From an uncultured Archangium sp. (GTDB lineage Bacteria > Myxococcota > Myxococcia > Myxococcales > Myxococcaceae): 64,000 bases of DNA. Of the stretch, positions 36,313 through 43,952 are shown piece by piece (position 1 is the first letter of the stretch; each line of letters starts with the position of its first letter). The stretch covers positions 1 to 64,000 of the forward strand of contig CAIVGN010000047.1 of NCBI GenBank assembly GCA_903905455.1. Direction: 5' to 3'. The position numbers were made by a program, and so were the translations under genes. A model generated the notes under the pieces. That model saw nothing but the letters and a program-made list of their open reading frames with translations, had not been told where the DNA came from and did no database searches.

Positions 36313-36316
<4 letters not shown>
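35177..36316 (-). CDS. Unknown helical-repeat protein
   Basis: A 379-residue soluble protein that I cannot assign. The N-terminal 210 residues look like HEAT-type helical hairpins ([20 protein letters not shown] and [20 protein letters not shown]). A Pro/Gln/Glu-rich linker near residue 230 follows, then a second helical unit ([20 protein letters not shown] and [20 protein letters not shown]). The C-terminus is lysine-rich. No signal peptide or membrane helix is visible. The start overlaps nothing, but its stop is 3 bases from the convergent frzS stop, and its ATG overlaps the stop of coaX. A scaffold role is possible but is only a guess. Confidence 0.7.
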
Positions 36317-37080
<764 letters not shown>

Positions 37081-37114
37081 GGGGCCGATGTTAGCGCCGC
37101 CCCCGCGCCCCCGG

Positions 37115-38113
37115 TTACGACTTCCGGGTTCGCACCTGCTCGACGTCACCCGACAAGACCCGCTCGATGCGCTCTCCCACCCGGAGCAGCAGCGCGCCGG
37201 TGGAGTCGATGTCTTCGGCCACCCCGCGCAGTTCGCGTTGTTCGCTGCGCACCAGCACCTCCTGCCCCAGCGTCGAGGCCAGCGCGCGCCAGGCCGAGCG
37301 CACCGGCTCGAAGCCCTCTTCGGTCCAGGTGTCGAGCCACTGCTCGAGCTTGGCCAGCAGGGCCGCGGCGAACAGCGCGCGGTGCACCGGGCTCTTGCGC
37401 GCCGCGGAAACCGAGGTGGCGATCTCCGCGATCTCGGGTGGGAACTCGGCCACGTCCACGTTCAGGTTCACGCCGACGCCCAGCACGATGAAGTGCACCC
37501 GCTCCACGTCGGCCGACAGCTCGGTGAGAATGCCGGCCACCTTCAGCCCGCCGATCTGCACGTCGTTGGGCCACTTGATGGTGGCCTCGACGCCCGAATC
37601 CCGCAGCGTCTCGGCGAGCGCCACGGCCGCCACCAGGGTCAGCTCGGGGGCCCGCGAGGGCGCGATCTCCGGGCGCAAGATGACGCTCATGGTCAACGCC
37701 TTGCCCGGGGGCGACACCCAGGTGCGACCCCGGCGCCCCTTCCCCTTCGTCTGGTGCTCGGTGACGATCACCTCGCCATGCGAGCCCCCCTCGTGAGCGA
37801 GCTCGAAGGCCTTGGCATTGGTCGATTCCAGGCTCTCGTAGTGGTGGAGCGTGCGGCCCAGGTCGCGCGTGGCCAGCAGCGGGCCCACCTCGAGCGCGGT
37901 GAGGCGGTCCGGGACCTCTTGCAGGCGGTACCCGCGGGCCGACTGCGCCTCGATGCGGTAGCCCATCTTTCGCAGCTGCTCGACGTGCTTCCACACGGCG
38001 GTGCGCGAGAGCCCCAGCTTGTCCGAGAGCGCCGCGCCGGACACGTAGTCGTCGCCCCCCTCCGCGAGGAAGGCGAGGATCATCTCTTCGTTCGAGAGCT
38101 CGGCGTCATCCAC
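37115..38113 (-). CDS. birA: Biotin-protein ligase / biotin operon repressor
   Basis: A 332-residue bifunctional BirA. Residues 8-65 form a winged helix ([20 protein letters not shown]) able to bind DNA. The ligase domain has the biotinyl-AMP motif [13 protein letters not shown], then [20 protein letters not shown], and a C-terminal SH3-like domain ([17 protein letters not shown]). It attaches biotin to carboxylases and may repress biotin genes. The start is GTG 38113-38111, with a shorter ATG option at 38053 that would remove part of the HTH. It lies 34 bases upstream of coaX in the same direction. Confidence 0.95.
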
Positions 38114-38154: not shown

Positions 38155-38724
38155 TCACCCCTTCGGCGGGCCGAACTTGAGCAGCGCCAGCGTCGACTGG
38201 GGGATCTGCTTGCCGTTCGACTCGAGCACCGTGGAGAGGCGCACGATGCCTACACCGGGCGCGAAGGTCATCTCGTTGACCAGCGAAGTGCCCTCCTCCA
38301 CCCGGTTGCGGCTCTCGACCACCACGCACCCCTGCCACGAACCGCCGGGGGCGTCGCAGGGCTGGTTGGCGGCGACGATCTCGTAGTTCTCGATGGACGA
38401 CACCGAGACCACGTTGGTCCACCTGGTCCCCGCGGCGATGGGGTTGCGCAGCAGGTAGCGCTTCTGGTCGCGCACCCCGAACGAGTCGACGAGGAACTGC
38501 GCGCCCGTGGAGTCCTCCACGAAGCCCTCCCCGTTCTTGCGCAGCATGCTCACGTCGATGGTGCGGCTCTCGCCCAGCAGCTTGACCTCGTAGGTCCACG
38601 AGGTGCCCACGGCCAGGGGGTAGAAGTCGCCGGCGGTGGGCTGCGGCTTGGTGGGCTGGGTCGTCTTCGTCGCGGTGGTGCACGCGGCGAGGGCCATCAG
38701 GCCGCAGAGGAAGATGCGCTTCAT
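38155..38724 (-). CDS. Putative lipoprotein of unknown function
   Basis: A 189-residue exported protein. MKRIFLCGLMALAACTT is a lipoprotein signal with lipobox LAAC. The mature part starts with a Thr/Lys/Pro-rich linker and then a beta-rich domain: FYPLAVGTSWTYEVKLLGES, YLLRNPIAAGTRWTNVVSV, and VVVESRNRVEEGTSLVNEMT. These short motifs recur in bacterial surface lipoproteins that measure or bind something unidentified. The start overlaps the TGA of the HEAT-repeat lipoprotein gene (38721-38724), so the two form an operon. Confidence 0.78.
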   Translation of the reverse strand: MKRIFLCGLMALAACTTATKTTQPTKPQPTAGDFYPLAVGTSWTYEVKLLGESRTIDVSMLRKNGEGFVEDSTGAQFLVDSFGVRDQKRYLLRNPIAAGTRWTNVVSVSSIENYEIVAANQPCDAPGGSWQGCVVVESRNRVEEGTSLVNEMTFAPGVGIVRLSTVLESNGKQIPQSTLALLKFGPPKG

Positions 38725-39614
38725 CGGGGTTCTCCTTGAGGGGACTTTTGCTTCGACTTGCGGGCTCTGAGCTCGGCGAGGGCCTGCTCGGCGCTCGCGC
38801 GGACCAGGGGGTCTTCGTGACCGGACACGACGAGATCGAGGTACGCCTCGGCGTCGTCGCCGCCGATGGCACCGATGGCGAAGACGACCTCGCGCTGAAA
38901 CTCGAGCCCGCGCTGGCTCGCGGCCTCGACCAGCGGGTTGACGGCTTCGGGGGCCCGCAGCTCGACCAGCAGGCCGATCGCCCCGCGCAGCGCGTTGAGA
39001 TCGTCGCCCGTGAGCCGCCCGAGCAGCACCGGCAACGCGGCCTTGTGCTGGCGGCGCACCAAGAGCCGAACGCTGGCGTCGCGCACCGCCGGGTCGGCGT
39101 CCTTCAGCTTCCCGACCAGGGTCACGTCGTTGGCGCCGTCGAGCGAGATCAACGCAGCCGATTCACGCACCACCAGTCCGAGAGCCTCGTCGAGCGCGTC
39201 GCGAATCGCGTTCTGCATCGACTCGACCTCGTTGGCCTGGGGCGCCTTCACCTGCCGGCGGCTGTCGAGCGAGAACGGCTCGGCATCGCCGGTGTGCCGC
39301 ACCTCGAGCACCACCGCGACGAACGCGGTGTGGTGCTCGATGTCTGGCTCGGTGAGCCCGGCCCCCAGCTTCACCCGCCAGGGCTTCGCGTCGGCAGGCG
39401 GCTTCTTGCCGTCAGACGCGACCAGGAACTTCGCAGCCTCCAGCTTCGCCACCAACTGCGCGTGGAGCTGCTCCTCCGAGAGCGAGATGACTTCCCCGCC
39501 CTCGAAGGCATCAACCTCGACCCGGTCGACCCACGAACGGTTCGACCTGGTGCAGGCAGCCGCACAAAGCACGGCCACCCACCAGGACGCACGCACTCGC
39601 GGGTGAAGGGTCAA
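38721..39614 (-). CDS. HEAT-repeat lipoprotein
   Basis: A 297-residue envelope protein. An N-terminal hydrophobic segment ends in a lipobox-like AAAC (cysteine near residue 21). Residues 30-160 are mixed beta/alpha with no family I can name. From about residue 165, HEAT-like repeats appear: LVGKLKDADPAVRDASVRLL, ALPVLLGRLTGDDLNALRGA and DPLVRASAEQALAELRARKS. These alpha-hairpin repeats usually bind proteins. It is coupled to the lipoprotein gene downstream and to the HARE-HTH protein gene upstream by 4-base overlaps. Confidence 0.78.
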   Translation of the reverse strand: MTLHPRVRASWWVAVLCAAACTRSNRSWVDRVEVDAFEGGEVISLSEEQLHAQLVAKLEAAKFLVASDGKKPPADAKPWRVKLGAGLTEPDIEHHTAFVAVVLEVRHTGDAEPFSLDSRRQVKAPQANEVESMQNAIRDALDEALGLVVRESAALISLDGANDVTLVGKLKDADPAVRDASVRLLVRRQHKAALPVLLGRLTGDDLNALRGAIGLLVELRAPEAVNPLVEAASQRGLEFQREVVFAIGAIGGDDAEAYLDLVVSGHEDPLVRASAEQALAELRARKSKQKSPQGEPR

Positions 39615-41446
39615 GTCGGCTCGGTCGACGGCGTCGGCGGGGCCGACGGCTCTGCGGGCTCGGGCTCGGGAGCCGGGGCGGGAGCAGCCGGGGCCTCGCT
39701 GGGCACCGGAGCAGAGGCCGAGGCGGGAGCCGCGCTCACGTCTCCGGGGGCAGCGGGGGCACCAGCAACCTGGCCGGCTTCACCGGGAGTCCCATCGGGA
39801 CGGGCACCGCCACGACGACGACGGCGGCGGCGACGGCGGCGACGCTTCCCCTCACCCGCATCACCCGGGGTGCCCGGCGCGGCGTCGGAGCCACCTTCAG
39901 CGCCTTCTTCGCCCTCGTCACCCTCTTCACCGTCGTCTTCTTCGTCAGCGCCTTCGGCCTGCACGGCCGGCACGCCCTCGGGCATCGTCACCGCGACGCT
40001 GGCCTCGACGGCAGGCGCCGAAGCGCGAGCCACGGGCACCTCGTCCGACTCGCCCTTGTCACCGGCGTCGGGGCCGCGCTGATCGCGCTCACGCTGGCGA
40101 TCTTCACGGCGCTTCGTCGCCTCGTCGGCGTCGAGCTTCGCCTGCGCGAAGAACGCCTCGTCGATGTCGTAGAGCTCGATCGTGGTGACCGAGACGCCGA
40201 CCTTGGCCTCGAAGAACTTGTCGGCCAGCGCGTCGCCGGCCCACATCATCACCAGCGCGCCGGTGGTGCACTCGCTACGGGCGTCACCGCGGGCTTCGCC
40301 AGCCGTGAGCAGGAGGCCGACGTTGGCGCCGGTCTGCTGCAGCTCTCGACGGAGCTCCTGCACCAGGCGGCGCTCGACCTGGCCGCCGCCCTTGAGCACG
40401 CGCACCGCGTAGCGGATCTCGAGGCTGCCCTCGCGACGACGCGCGGTGAGGAGCGGGCCGTCCTTCGACCGGCGCGCCACCTTGAGTTCGCGGAAGTGGA
40501 GGCCGTGCAGCATGCGCACGCAGGCCTTCTCGAAGGTGCCGAGGTCGAGGTCCGCGAGCTTCTTGCGGAGCACCCGGGCCATGGCCTTGCGCGCGTCCTT
40601 GCCGGCGTGACGCGCGGTCGCGATGAGCGCGACGTCGTCGCCGGCAGGCGCGGCGACCCCGGTGGGGGCCTCGGCTGCGGCAGCGGCGGCAGCGGCCGCC
40701 TGCTGGGCGCGGCGCTCGCTCTTGAGCACCACGCGGCCGTTCTCGAACGGCAGGTTGCAGGCGGCGCAGAACGCCGTCTGCACCTCGAGCGCCGTGGGGC
40801 CGCCTTCGGCCTGGGGCTCGACGGACAGCTGGAGCTCGTTGGCCTCGGTGCGCGCCGCGGCGAAGGCCGGCTTGCGCGACTCGTCGACCCGCTTCTGGTT
40901 GTCCAGCGCCAGGCCGTCGATGAGCTGCGAGATGGAGCAGTCGTCGGACACGCCCTCGCGCGCCTTGATGCGCGCCAGCAGCTCGCCGGGGGGCAGCGCG
41001 GTGGCCGCCTCCTGCAACACCTCGAAGGCCACCTCGGCGATCGGCGGGAACTTCTTCTTCCGGTCGTCGTCGCGACGCTTCCGGTCGCCCTGGCGGCCGA
41101 TGCTGCGCAGGAACTCGGCGTGGGCCTCGGGGTGCCGCTCCGACGGCCGGTACGGAGGCAGCGCCTCCTCGGGATTGGGCTCGATGATCCCGGTGGCGGC
41201 CAGCGCCTCAGGGTCTTCGGGCAGCATCCAGTCGATGAGGGCGAAGGTGTCTTTCGCCGTCACCTGGAGCTTGCGATCACGAGGACGCTTGGCCATCGCG
41301 GCCAATCGCGAGAGCATCGTAATCTCAGGCGTCTTGCCGATGTGGGACAGCAAACCTTTTTCAACTGCACGCTTCGTAATGTCCGTCGAGAGGAGCGGCA
41401 TTCCCGCTTCCTCGAGGACGCGGAGCGCCGCTTCGTAGAATGTCAT
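39611..41446 (-). CDS. HARE-HTH protein with Mrr-like nuclease-fold domain and low-complexity tail
   Basis: A 611-residue protein. Residues 1-70 look like a HARE-HTH winged helix (TFYEAALRVLEEAGMPLLST and MLSRLAAMAKRPRDR). A second similar helical unit lies near 125-185 (PPIAEVAFEVLQEAATALPP). A CxxC follows in AFCAACNLPF, then an Ala-rich helix. Residues about 300-420 resemble the restriction-endonuclease Mrr fold (LGTFEKACVRMLHGLHFREL, then LLTARRREGSLEIRYAVRVL), but the QxK active-site motif is not clear. The last 150 residues are disordered: Glu/Asp-rich, then eleven arginines in a row, then Pro/Ala repeats. ATG 41446 was chosen over TTG 41467. Role unknown; DNA or RNA binding is likely. 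Confidence 0.72.
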   Translation of the reverse strand: MTFYEAALRVLEEAGMPLLSTDITKRAVEKGLLSHIGKTPEITMLSRLAAMAKRPRDRKLQVTAKDTFALIDWMLPEDPEALAATGIIEPNPEEALPPYRPSERHPEAHAEFLRSIGRQGDRKRRDDDRKKKFPPIAEVAFEVLQEAATALPPGELLARIKAREGVSDDCSISQLIDGLALDNQKRVDESRKPAFAAARTEANELQLSVEPQAEGGPTALEVQTAFCAACNLPFENGRVVLKSERRAQQAAAAAAAAAEAPTGVAAPAGDDVALIATARHAGKDARKAMARVLRKKLADLDLGTFEKACVRMLHGLHFRELKVARRSKDGPLLTARRREGSLEIRYAVRVLKGGGQVERRLVQELRRELQQTGANVGLLLTAGEARGDARSECTTGALVMMWAGDALADKFFEAKVGVSVTTIELYDIDEAFFAQAKLDADEATKRREDRQRERDQRGPDAGDKGESDEVPVARASAPAVEASVAVTMPEGVPAVQAEGADEEDDGEEGDEGEEGAEGGSDAAPGTPGDAGEGKRRRRRRRRRRRGGARPDGTPGEAGQVAGAPAAPGDVSAAPASASAPVPSEAPAAPAPAPEPEPAEPSAPPTPSTEPT

Positions 41447-41534
41447 GGGTTTTCCCAGTAAATCCAAGGACTTCCGATGAAGTCCTTTCAGAGACGCGAA
41501 TGCTACGCAGCGGTACAGTGAGTGTCAACGTGTG

Positions 41535-43616
41535 ATGATCAGGTTCCGGGTGGGTCACAGCTGGCTGCGCGAAGACCCGGGGCCCGGTGGCCCGCGGGAC
41601 GCGTTCGCTTTCGAGCTCGAAGGCATCAACGTGCTGCCCGGTGCGAACGATGAGCCGCTGGCGCGCATCATCAGCGCCCTGGTCGAGACCACCACCGCCC
41701 TGGCCATCGACGGCGAGCGGGCGGGCCAGGTGTCGCTCGAAGACGTGCACCTCGAGCTGTGCTTCTGGCGCACCGGGGGCCACGAGGTGACGGTCAGCGT
41801 GGTCGATCTCTCGGCGCCGCCGCGGCTGGTGCGCGCCCCGATCGCCGTCGAGCTGCCCTCGCTGGTCGAGGCCACGGTGCGCTGCGCGCGGCAGTTCCTG
41901 CGAGACGTGAGCACCCACCGCGAGGGCATCGAGACCGAGCTGGTGGCCCTCGAGCGAAAGCTCAAGCGCCTGACCTCGGCGGTGATCGAAGAGCGGCCGC
42001 TGCGCGACACCTCGATCCCCTGGAGCGCGGTGCGTAGCGCCGACCATGGCCTCGGCTATTCGCTGCGAGACGACGAGGGGCGAACGCTCGCGTGGACGAG
42101 GAAGACCCGCGCCGGGCTGCCTCCCCTGCTCTTCGATGGTGAGCTCACCCTGGCCGACGGCACCACCGCGCCGGGGCTCCCCTTTCTCTCGATGATGGGC
42201 CTCGCGCGGGCCGCCACCGAGGGCTCGGCCAGGCTGGGGGGCCAGCCCGTGCCCGCCGATCGCGTGTTCCTCGCGGGCCTCGACCTGTGCCTGGCGCTGC
42301 GCTCGCGGCACCCCTCGCTCAGCGCGAACCCCTACGTCGAGGCGCTGCAGGTGCGCTGCACCGACGGCCTCACCGCCTTGCGACAACCGGTGCCCGACAC
42401 CACGCTGGCCACCGTCAACCCGCCCCGCGCGACGCCCGGCATGCCGCTCGCGCCGGTCGGCGATCTGCGCAAGGTCGCGCTGCAGCCGCGCTGGAGTCGG
42501 CCGGTGGCGCTGGGTGAAGACGGCGGCCGGATCCTCCTGGGGAAGCGGTGGATCATCGTCCACTCGCCCCACGCCGCCCACGCCTTCACCCGGCAGGGAG
42601 GGACGGCGTTCCGCCACCTGGCCAACCGCGGCGTCGCCATCTCCGGCGCGGGCTTCGCGGTGTGCGCCGCGCCCGGACAGGTGCTGGGCTTCGACGGCCG
42701 CGCGCCGAACGCCGCGTGGCTGCGCGATCACGACGGCAGCCCCCTGGGCCCGGCGCTCGAGGCCGCGGGGGAAGCGTTGGTCTGCGCCATGGGCCGCCGC
42801 ACCGTCGCCGGGTTCTCGGCGATGACCGGCCGGGAACTGTGGCGCTTCGAGCCGCCGCGTACCCAGAGCGTCGTCTTCTCCCTGGTGGGCAACCGCGTGC
42901 TGGTGGGCACCGACGGCGGCACCCTCTACGGCGTCGACGCGGGCGACGGCCAGGTGCGGTTCCGCGTGAAGGCCGGCCTGCCCGTCGCCCGGGCCCCGGT
43001 CGCGGTGCGCCACCGCGCGCTGGTCGTGCTCAACCGCGGAGAACACTCGGCGCTCTACCTGTGCGACGCGCTCTCCCGGGGTGACACCACGCCGGCCGGG
43101 GCGATCGTGTGGACGCGGGAGCTGATCCTCGGCACGCCCAGCGCGCCGGTCTCGGCCCGGGGCAAGACGTGGCTGGGCGGAGCCCGCGACGGCCGCACCG
43201 CCATCGTGTGCCTCGGCGCGCGCGGCCAGGTGCTGTGGGAGAAGACCGTGCCCTGCGACGCCCGCACGCTCAGCCTGCTGCCGTACGAGGGCGGGGTCAT
43301 CGCCGCCGACGCCCGCGGGTCGGCCACCCGGCTGCTGCCCGACGGCTCGATGGACTGGGTGCTGGGATCTTCGGGCGACGAGCTCAGCCGCCCCATCGCC
43401 CCGGTGATCCGCCGCGGCACCCTGGTCGTACCGGGGCCCGTGACGCGCCTGGTCCAGCCCAACGGAGGGCGCGTGCTGGCCGAGCTGGCCACGGGCGCGC
43501 GCATGCTCGACCTCGTCACCGACGCCCGGCTCACCATCTACGTGCTGCGCGAGCCGGGCGCGCTCGAGACCTTCGTCCCGGGCACGGCCCTGGCCCTGGT
43601 CAGGTCACCGGTCTAG
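41535..43616 (+). CDS. PQQ-type beta-propeller repeat protein, cytoplasmic
   Basis: A 693-residue protein. Residues 1-330 are an unrecognised mixed domain with a helical patch (RQFLRDVSTHREGIETELVA). From about residue 340 a propeller of PQQ-like repeats begins: AVCAAPGQVLGFDGRAPNAA, FSAMTGRELWRFEPP and VGTDGGTLYGVDAGDGQVRF, with further GQVLWEK and DGSMDWVL units. There is no signal peptide, so these repeats are likely structural rather than PQQ-binding. A GTG at 41532 directly precedes the ATG. It is divergent from the HARE-HTH gene, and its stop overlaps the convergent EF-hand gene by 12 bases. Confidence 0.76.
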   Translation: MIRFRVGHSWLREDPGPGGPRDAFAFELEGINVLPGANDEPLARIISALVETTTALAIDGERAGQVSLEDVHLELCFWRTGGHEVTVSVVDLSAPPRLVRAPIAVELPSLVEATVRCARQFLRDVSTHREGIETELVALERKLKRLTSAVIEERPLRDTSIPWSAVRSADHGLGYSLRDDEGRTLAWTRKTRAGLPPLLFDGELTLADGTTAPGLPFLSMMGLARAATEGSARLGGQPVPADRVFLAGLDLCLALRSRHPSLSANPYVEALQVRCTDGLTALRQPVPDTTLATVNPPRATPGMPLAPVGDLRKVALQPRWSRPVALGEDGGRILLGKRWIIVHSPHAAHAFTRQGGTAFRHLANRGVAISGAGFAVCAAPGQVLGFDGRAPNAAWLRDHDGSPLGPALEAAGEALVCAMGRRTVAGFSAMTGRELWRFEPPRTQSVVFSLVGNRVLVGTDGGTLYGVDAGDGQVRFRVKAGLPVARAPVAVRHRALVVLNRGEHSALYLCDALSRGDTTPAGAIVWTRELILGTPSAPVSARGKTWLGGARDGRTAIVCLGARGQVLWEKTVPCDARTLSLLPYEGGVIAADARGSATRLLPDGSMDWVLGSSGDELSRPIAPVIRRGTLVVPGPVTRLVQPNGGRVLAELATGARMLDLVTDARLTIYVLREPGALETFVPGTALALVRSPV

Positions 43617-43952
43617 CCACCAGGCCTTGAACTCGGCCCACGAGATGCGGCCCGAGCCGTTGGCGTCGACCACGTCGAGGGCCATGGACAGCTCGTCGTC
43701 GTCGTTGGGCTGACCGAGCGCCTCGAGGAGCCGCGCCAGCTCGCCGCGGTCGATGCTCCCCGACCCGTCGCGGTCGAACGACTTGAAGATCTCGAAGGTC
43801 TCGTCGCCCTCGCTCTCGCCGTCGTCGAGCTCGGGGTGGTTCACCTTGCCGTGCATGGGCGGCACGCGGGGCGTGCCCTTCTTCGCGACCTTCACGGGCG
43901 ATTTCTGCGTGGGCTTCACCTTCGGGGCGGGCTTCGTTTTCTTCGCTGCCAT
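43605..43952 (-). CDS. EF-hand calcium-binding protein
   Basis: A 115-residue protein. The first 40 residues are Lys/Pro-rich and probably unfolded (AKKTKPAPKVKPTQKSPVKV). Two EF-hands follow: DRDGSGSIDRGE, a canonical 12-residue loop, and DANGSGRISWAE, in which the usual acidic or Asn third ligand is Asn and Gly stands in the normal position. The spacing between the hands is that of calmodulin-like pairs. It lacks a signal peptide, so it may act as a cytoplasmic calcium sensor. Its ATG lies only 61 bases from the divergent deaminase start. No partner protein is evident nearby. Confidence 0.88.
   Translation of the reverse strand: MAAKKTKPAPKVKPTQKSPVKVAKKGTPRVPPMHGKVNHPELDDGESEGDETFEIFKSFDRDGSGSIDRGELARLLEALGQPNDDDELSMALDVVDANGSGRISWAEFKAWWLDR

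Follow-up and report, generated by a model that had tools for sequence, protein, structure and literature searches.

The window, the 64,000-nucleotide stretch of DNA that was analysed, carries on its minus strand a gene whose product combines a HARE-HTH winged helix, a second winged helix, a restriction-endonuclease fold of the Mrr type and a highly charged tail (Table 1). We verified this gene, which starts at an ATG and encodes 611 amino acids, and followed up an initial annotation, made from the sequence alone, that had proposed for its product either a non-cutting sensor of modified or damaged DNA or a nucleoid protein. The gene lies between a divergent beta-propeller gene and a downstream series of genes on its own strand. 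Beyond the divergent gene, a small EF-hand pair protein is encoded on the minus strand (43605-43952); its frame overlaps the PQQ gene and an adenosine deaminase frame at their ends.

Table 1. Features at the locus, with positions counted along the window
Feature	Positions	Strand	Remarks
HARE / second winged helix / dead Mrr-fold / charged-tail gene	39611..41446	-	611 aa + stop
HARE-HTH winged helix, residues 1-70	41231..41446	-	Invariant MTFxEAA-type start, LLSHxGK motif
Linker motif RPxERHP, residues 100-106	41129..41149	-	Near-invariant in Myxococcia-type members; pLDDT low
Second winged helix, residues 134-213	40808..41047	-	Fur/Zur-like fold match
CxxC, residues 227-230	40757..40768	-	Confined to the window's own genus
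Mrr_cat-related PD-(D/E)xK fold, residues 299-409	40220..40552	-	Without catalytic Asp, without QxK Lys
Acidic D/E/G segment, residues 497-523	39878..39958	-	
Eleven-arginine run, residues 535-545	39812..39844	-	Codons 6 CGT + 5 CGC
Pro/Ala-rich tail end, residues 546-611	39614..39811	-	
Sigma-70-type promoter TTGACA-17-TAGCAT	41500..41528	-	10/12 matches
Inverted repeat in 5' leader	41466..41487	-	Sequence varies between relatives; folding z-score weak
HEAT-repeat protein, likely lipoprotein, downstream	38721..39614	-	Start overlaps end of HARE gene
Short protein with lipobox (LAAC), downstream	38155..38724	-	
BirA-type biotin protein ligase	37115..38113	-	Operon-conserved in Myxococcaceae-type loci
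Type III pantothenate kinase (CoaX)	36313..37149	-	
PQQ/BamB-like beta-propeller protein, divergent	41532..43616	+	

Gene neighbourhood and promoter

At the Myxococcaceae-type loci that could be tested, the divergent PQQ gene was found in 37/40, the HEAT-repeat gene in 41/41, the small lipoprotein gene in 33/36, BirA in 35/35 and CoaX in 30/30. The corresponding counts at other loci were 12/25, 11/19, 8/18, 0/12 and 0/3. Since a simple lipobox pattern was recognised in 41 of the 55 HEAT proteins and in 23 of the 50 small proteins, the term lipoprotein is likely rather than proven for both. The coupling to two lipoprotein genes described in the initial annotation holds at Myxococcaceae-type loci but not in the wider family, which often has LipB next to the gene. 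In a second group of relatives, from the phylum of genome G197, relatives of a LipB-type gene occur at 10 of the 20 loci. Within this group (L192-L211, L167), LipB often lies downstream of the dead HARE gene; in the Myxococcaceae, the HARE gene lies upstream of BirA, a ligase type related to LipB. The scanned neighbours of the HARE gene included no methyltransferase, as the initial annotation had it. Elsewhere in the same genome (G000:C189:61062-61775), a frame of about 300 residues with a strong match to the methyltransferase family PF01555 recurs in most of the Myxococcaceae searched and is possibly an orphan core methylase.

About 53 bases separate the end of the putative promoter from the ATG. 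A shuffled region yields 0.1 such sites, and similar hexamers recur upstream of the gene in relatives. Between this promoter and the start codon lies the inverted repeat, whose pairing is often kept in relatives though the sequence differs. Folding of the leader gave weak z-scores, -1.63 in the window and between -0.23 and -1.24 in five relatives; a conserved riboregulator hairpin formed by the repeat is no more than a possibility.

Domain make-up and the lost nuclease site

Using Pfam profiles, we found a HARE-HTH domain (PF05066) at residues 1-70, with an E-value of 3.2e-13 and 50.3 bits against a curated cut-off of 25.9, and a Mrr_cat domain at residues 299-409, with 38 bits against a curated cut-off of 21. 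Both domains had been read from the sequence in the initial annotation, and the restriction-endonuclease fold agrees with the second of them. The protein also matched a candidate family of PADLOC, PDC-S02 (best E 2.5e-12), and no NCBIfam family matched it at E up to 1. No other HARE-HTH gene was found in the 8.6-Mb genome to which it belongs. An AlphaFold2 model built on 43 aligned sequences (mean pLDDT 84.1, pTM 0.40) predicted two winged helices, at residues 1-75 and at about 134-213, in keeping with the two HTH-like units expected, with a disordered and charged linker between them, and a restriction-endonuclease fold at about 286-420; the pTM being only 0.40, the relative placement of the domains is not defined by the model. 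A sequence-profile search of solved structures gave no significant relative of the window protein (best E 0.08). Overall, the domain make-up of the protein is established. The CxxC motif picked out in the initial annotation is present at residues 227-230, but it is limited to the window's genus and absent from the other members; therefore, we rejected zinc binding through this motif.

To place the catalytic residues, we aligned 88 members with three Mrr proteins of related genomes whose motifs are intact. The members comprised proteins from the Myxococcaceae, from other families of the order and from a second family of the class, together with three more divergent proteins; the 88 rows may hold near-copies of one gene obtained by two routes, and a few of the proteins are cut at contig ends. 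Among these Myxococcia-type proteins, Asp occupied the GGxD column in 0/88 (87 gaps and one Phe) and Lys the QxK column in 0/88. At the Gln column of QxK, we observed Arg in 80 members, Lys in four, Gln in two and Phe in two, and the Arg preceding the lost Asp was retained in 88/88. With Arg instead of Gln, the former metal site would lend itself to backbone binding. For the second group, 20 loci were fetched from among the better matches, of which 19 were family members and the twentieth was L208. Asp or Lys was found at the aligned catalytic columns in 0/19 of these members, four of which have Arg in the Lys column; the alignment of this more distant group is less certain. By contrast, four true nucleases from related genomes (L168, L169, L170 and L208) retain both the catalytic Asp and Lys. 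Intact HARE-Mrr proteins with GGxD and QxK were located in genomes of the wider group, at L208 2296-3741 (G223), L168_29 (G116) and L169_1 (G108); genome G223 carries one dead member and, separately, the intact protein of L208.

The loss of the site is established: as judged from the aligned residues, none of the members examined has an intact nuclease site. The lack of an obvious QxK motif in the initial annotation extends to GGxD in the window protein, and our check for a PD-(D/E)xK site returned the fold with its catalytic residues absent, unlike a normal restriction enzyme. A non-cutting protein, as first suggested, is well supported, because every member examined has lost the site although the fold persists. 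Cleavage of modified DNA by the window protein, in the manner of a type IV system, is unlikely, since the catalytic residues are missing.

Charged tail, inheritance and selection

The tail has the make-up given in the initial annotation, with exactly 11 consecutive Arg, an acidic stretch before them and Pro/Ala residues after. Across 88 distinct proteins, the longest Arg run reached 8 or more residues in 29, 5-7 in 39 and fewer than 5 in 20, some of these 20 proteins being cut by contig ends. Downstream of the acidic stretch, RKRRRRRRRGRRGRG is nearly fixed in the Myxococcus/Corallococcus/Archangium group, and in f5, which we labelled Anaeromyxobacter-like by inference, 9-11 arginines are followed mostly by GGRGR. 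The order families f2, f3, f4, f6, f7, f8 and f9 have other charged tails without a long Arg run. Several families of the order thus have only a short run or none, so that the tail is dispensable in some lineages. Members of the second group have poly-arginine (up to 10) and acidic stretches mainly between the HARE domain and the second winged helix, some of them with weaker basic stretches only. The Arg codons are mixed across members (CGT, CGC, CGG and some AGG), and such mixed synonymous codons suggest selection on the protein rather than a simple DNA repeat.

A search for the poly-arginine motif in three genomes gave two further proteins. The Rho protein of the Anaeromyxobacter-like genome G068 (L173 270-1667, minus strand) contains in its N-terminal extension the sequence RRRRRRRGRRGRG, almost the same motif as in HARE proteins of Myxococcus, and a PcnB-type poly(A) polymerase of the window's own genome (G000:C57, L157 132-1655, minus strand) ends in a tail-like C-terminal poly-arginine run. 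The frames of the other matches examined look non-coding. Long D/E repeats also occur at the end of another protein of this genome (G000:C181, L164 1653-3413, minus strand).

Phylogenetic spread had been named as a check in the initial annotation. The gene was present in 96/99 genomes of the same genus, family and order, and in 78/79 of the good-quality ones, some matches being partial at contig ends and a few genomes having more than one match. For the whole phylum, a profile search matched 141/195 genomes, or 118/149 of good quality. Among the genomes listed as lacking a match in this search, ten belong to the family or order, with a completeness of 66-93% except for G084 (99%); a further 34 genomes had no match. 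Four matching genomes belong to other classes of the phylum: G108, G111 and G116 have intact Mrr motifs, and in G112 a HARE domain is joined to a degenerate remainder. In the phylum of G197, a match at E up to 0.001 was obtained in 65/140 genomes, active relatives being counted as well; the gene is thus not universal there. We found no match in 72,556 plasmid records or 50,697 phage records, and no relative on viral contigs. With 96/99 relatives carrying the gene and no relatives found on plasmids, phages or viral contigs, its distribution is not the patchy, mobile one expected of defence genes.

We then compared a tree of the protein with a tree of CoaX and its neighbour for the same 38 loci. 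The main groups were common to both, namely Corallococcus, two Myxococcus groups and the window's genus, and disagreements occurred among long or weakly supported branches. One record named Comamonas sp. KCTC 72670 (L052, BNCN01000004.1) falls inside Myxococcus in both trees and is likely mislabelled. Near-universal presence in close relatives and vertical inheritance are established: this is a core gene of myxobacteria and not a patchy defence gene. Per-domain dN/dS between the window protein and three relatives of its genus gave an omega of 0.04-0.10 for the HARE domain and 0.10-0.13 for the dead nuclease domain. In the second winged helix omega was 0.33-0.41, and in the tail 0.21-0.34. Four pairs from other Myxococcaceae gave 0 to 0.17 for the HARE domain and 0 to 0.13 for the dead domain, some of these values resting on few changes. 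Purifying selection acts strongly on the HARE domain and on the dead nuclease domain, and the charged segment is retained. Such constraint on a dead domain implies a job other than cutting.

Proposed role and comparison with known systems

We favour, with moderate confidence, a domesticated HARE-Mrr enzyme that serves as a non-cutting, nucleic-acid-binding chromosome or transcription factor of myxobacteria. Its ancestor would have been a restriction endonuclease of the HARE-Mrr type, which lost the ability to cut and became fixed in the myxobacterial core genome. The present protein would be made constitutively and bind nucleic acid without cutting. Its two winged helices, HARE included, would bind DNA, and the dead nuclease domain, in which Arg replaces the catalytic Gln, would act as a platform that holds DNA or dimerises. 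The acidic/poly-arginine segment may add non-specific, self-competed contacts to DNA or RNA, as would be expected of a chromosome-organising or transcription-associated protein. We infer DNA binding, the platform and the cellular role from these features. The nucleoid protein raised in the initial annotation would fit a near-universal, vertically inherited gene whose product has winged helices and a basic tail. We put forward more tentatively, as a possibility only, that a modification-dependent enzyme became a core chromatin or transcription factor whose disordered acidic/poly-arginine segment drives condensation or RNA contact and was retained as it shifted between two positions in the protein. 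If the chromatin or transcription-factor reading is true, the two winged helices and the dead nuclease would clamp on DNA, and chromatin proteins of the HARE-containing and H1-like kinds would have a counterpart in bacteria.

Alternatively, the HARE domain could recognise a methylated or hypermodified base, with the dead nuclease holding the site and reporting or shielding it. The nearest fold matches include the modification-dependent AspBHI and MspJI, N6_N4 methyltransferases (PF01555) occur in 58/60 relatives, and passages of two papers propose that HARE-HTH-nuclease fusions discriminate modified DNA (PMC10853773, PMC11037411). However, cytosine-5 methyltransferases (PF00145) occur in only 20/60 relatives, and the scanned neighbours lack a methyltransferase. 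The role is further weakened by genomes G061 and G072, which have the protein and matched neither of the two families searched, PF00145 and PF01555. We consider this reader of modified DNA unlikely.

The poly-arginine/RG segment could instead bind RNA in a transcription-termination factor partnered with RNA polymerase or the RNA-decay machinery. This would be in line with RRRRRRRGRRGRG in the Rho of G068, with the poly-arginine end of PcnB in the window's own genome and with the RNA polymerase delta subunit, which likewise has a HARE-type domain and a charged tail. Against it, the motif search spanned only three genomes, and DNA is the typical ligand of both winged helices and of the nuclease fold; we give this role a low probability. 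Local regulation of the divergent PQQ gene and of the downstream lipoprotein/birA/coaX operon appears very doubtful. The neighbours are nearly constant at Myxococcaceae-type loci (divergent pair 37/40; operon 41/41, 33/36, 35/35 and 30/30) and the leader holds an inverted repeat, but the protein persists where the neighbours differ, both outside such loci (BirA 0/12) and in the second group, with its frequent LipB (10/20 loci). Finally, we rejected as extremely improbable a functional restriction endonuclease that cuts by means of an atypical active site. The Mrr_cat score above the curated cut-off and the fold would speak for it, but the catalytic Asp and Lys are absent in all members examined and the distribution is core, the gene being operon-bound and not found on plasmids or phages.

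The domesticated, non-cutting factor that we favour is built of component parts of known kinds. In our literature searches we recognised no paper on this myxobacterial protein, and the HARE-HTH survey of Aravind and Iyer (2012), not covered by them, may list it. The passage from a defence-type nuclease to a housekeeping protein would bear on how HARE-HTH restriction modules came to serve chromatin elsewhere, and the charged segment offers a natural test of the role of poly-arginine/acidic disordered tails in bacteria. In Myxococcus xanthus, a main model for bacterial multicellularity, a core and apparently unstudied nucleic-acid-binding protein, retained by nearly all close relatives, is a direct target for genetic work.

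Known systems were compared in part by fold, in a search where one domain filled the match list and the model outside residues 298-417 was barely probed. The winged-helix core resembles linker histone H1 (5nl0 chain Z; Z 9.2, rmsd 1.8, 66 aligned), which also has a basic disordered tail; the match reflects the fold of a very common domain and is no evidence of common descent. The RPB5 subunit of eukaryotic RNA polymerases, with a nuclease-like fold inside a non-cutting protein, gave a middling match (Z about 8) with no sequence relation shown. RpoE, the delta subunit of Firmicutes RNA polymerase, has a HARE-type domain and a charged disordered tail without a nuclease-fold domain, and the window protein had no NCBIfam match at E up to 1. 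Residues 286-418 matched AspBHI (Z 11.5, rmsd 2.9, 131 aligned, 20% identity) and also MspJI, active enzymes whose catalytic residues are absent in the window protein. The closest named inactive family is, by sequence profile, NA-iREase1 (PF22722, NACHT-associated inactive restriction endonuclease), which has the inactive REase fold in common with our protein. Two distant members score above its cut-off of 27 bits (L193 30.5, L207 28.6); in contrast, the window protein scores only 12.7 bits, and a NACHT domain was not found. Lastly, passages of PMC10853773 describe HARE-HTH fused to a restriction-endonuclease domain in Dnd neighbourhoods and, with passages of PMC11037411, propose that HARE-HTH and REase proteins recognise modified DNA. 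Like those fusions (PMC10853773), the window protein has an N-terminal HARE-HTH and a Mrr/REase-type domain; unlike them, it has lost the site, carries a poly-arginine segment and is encoded by a core, vertically inherited gene.
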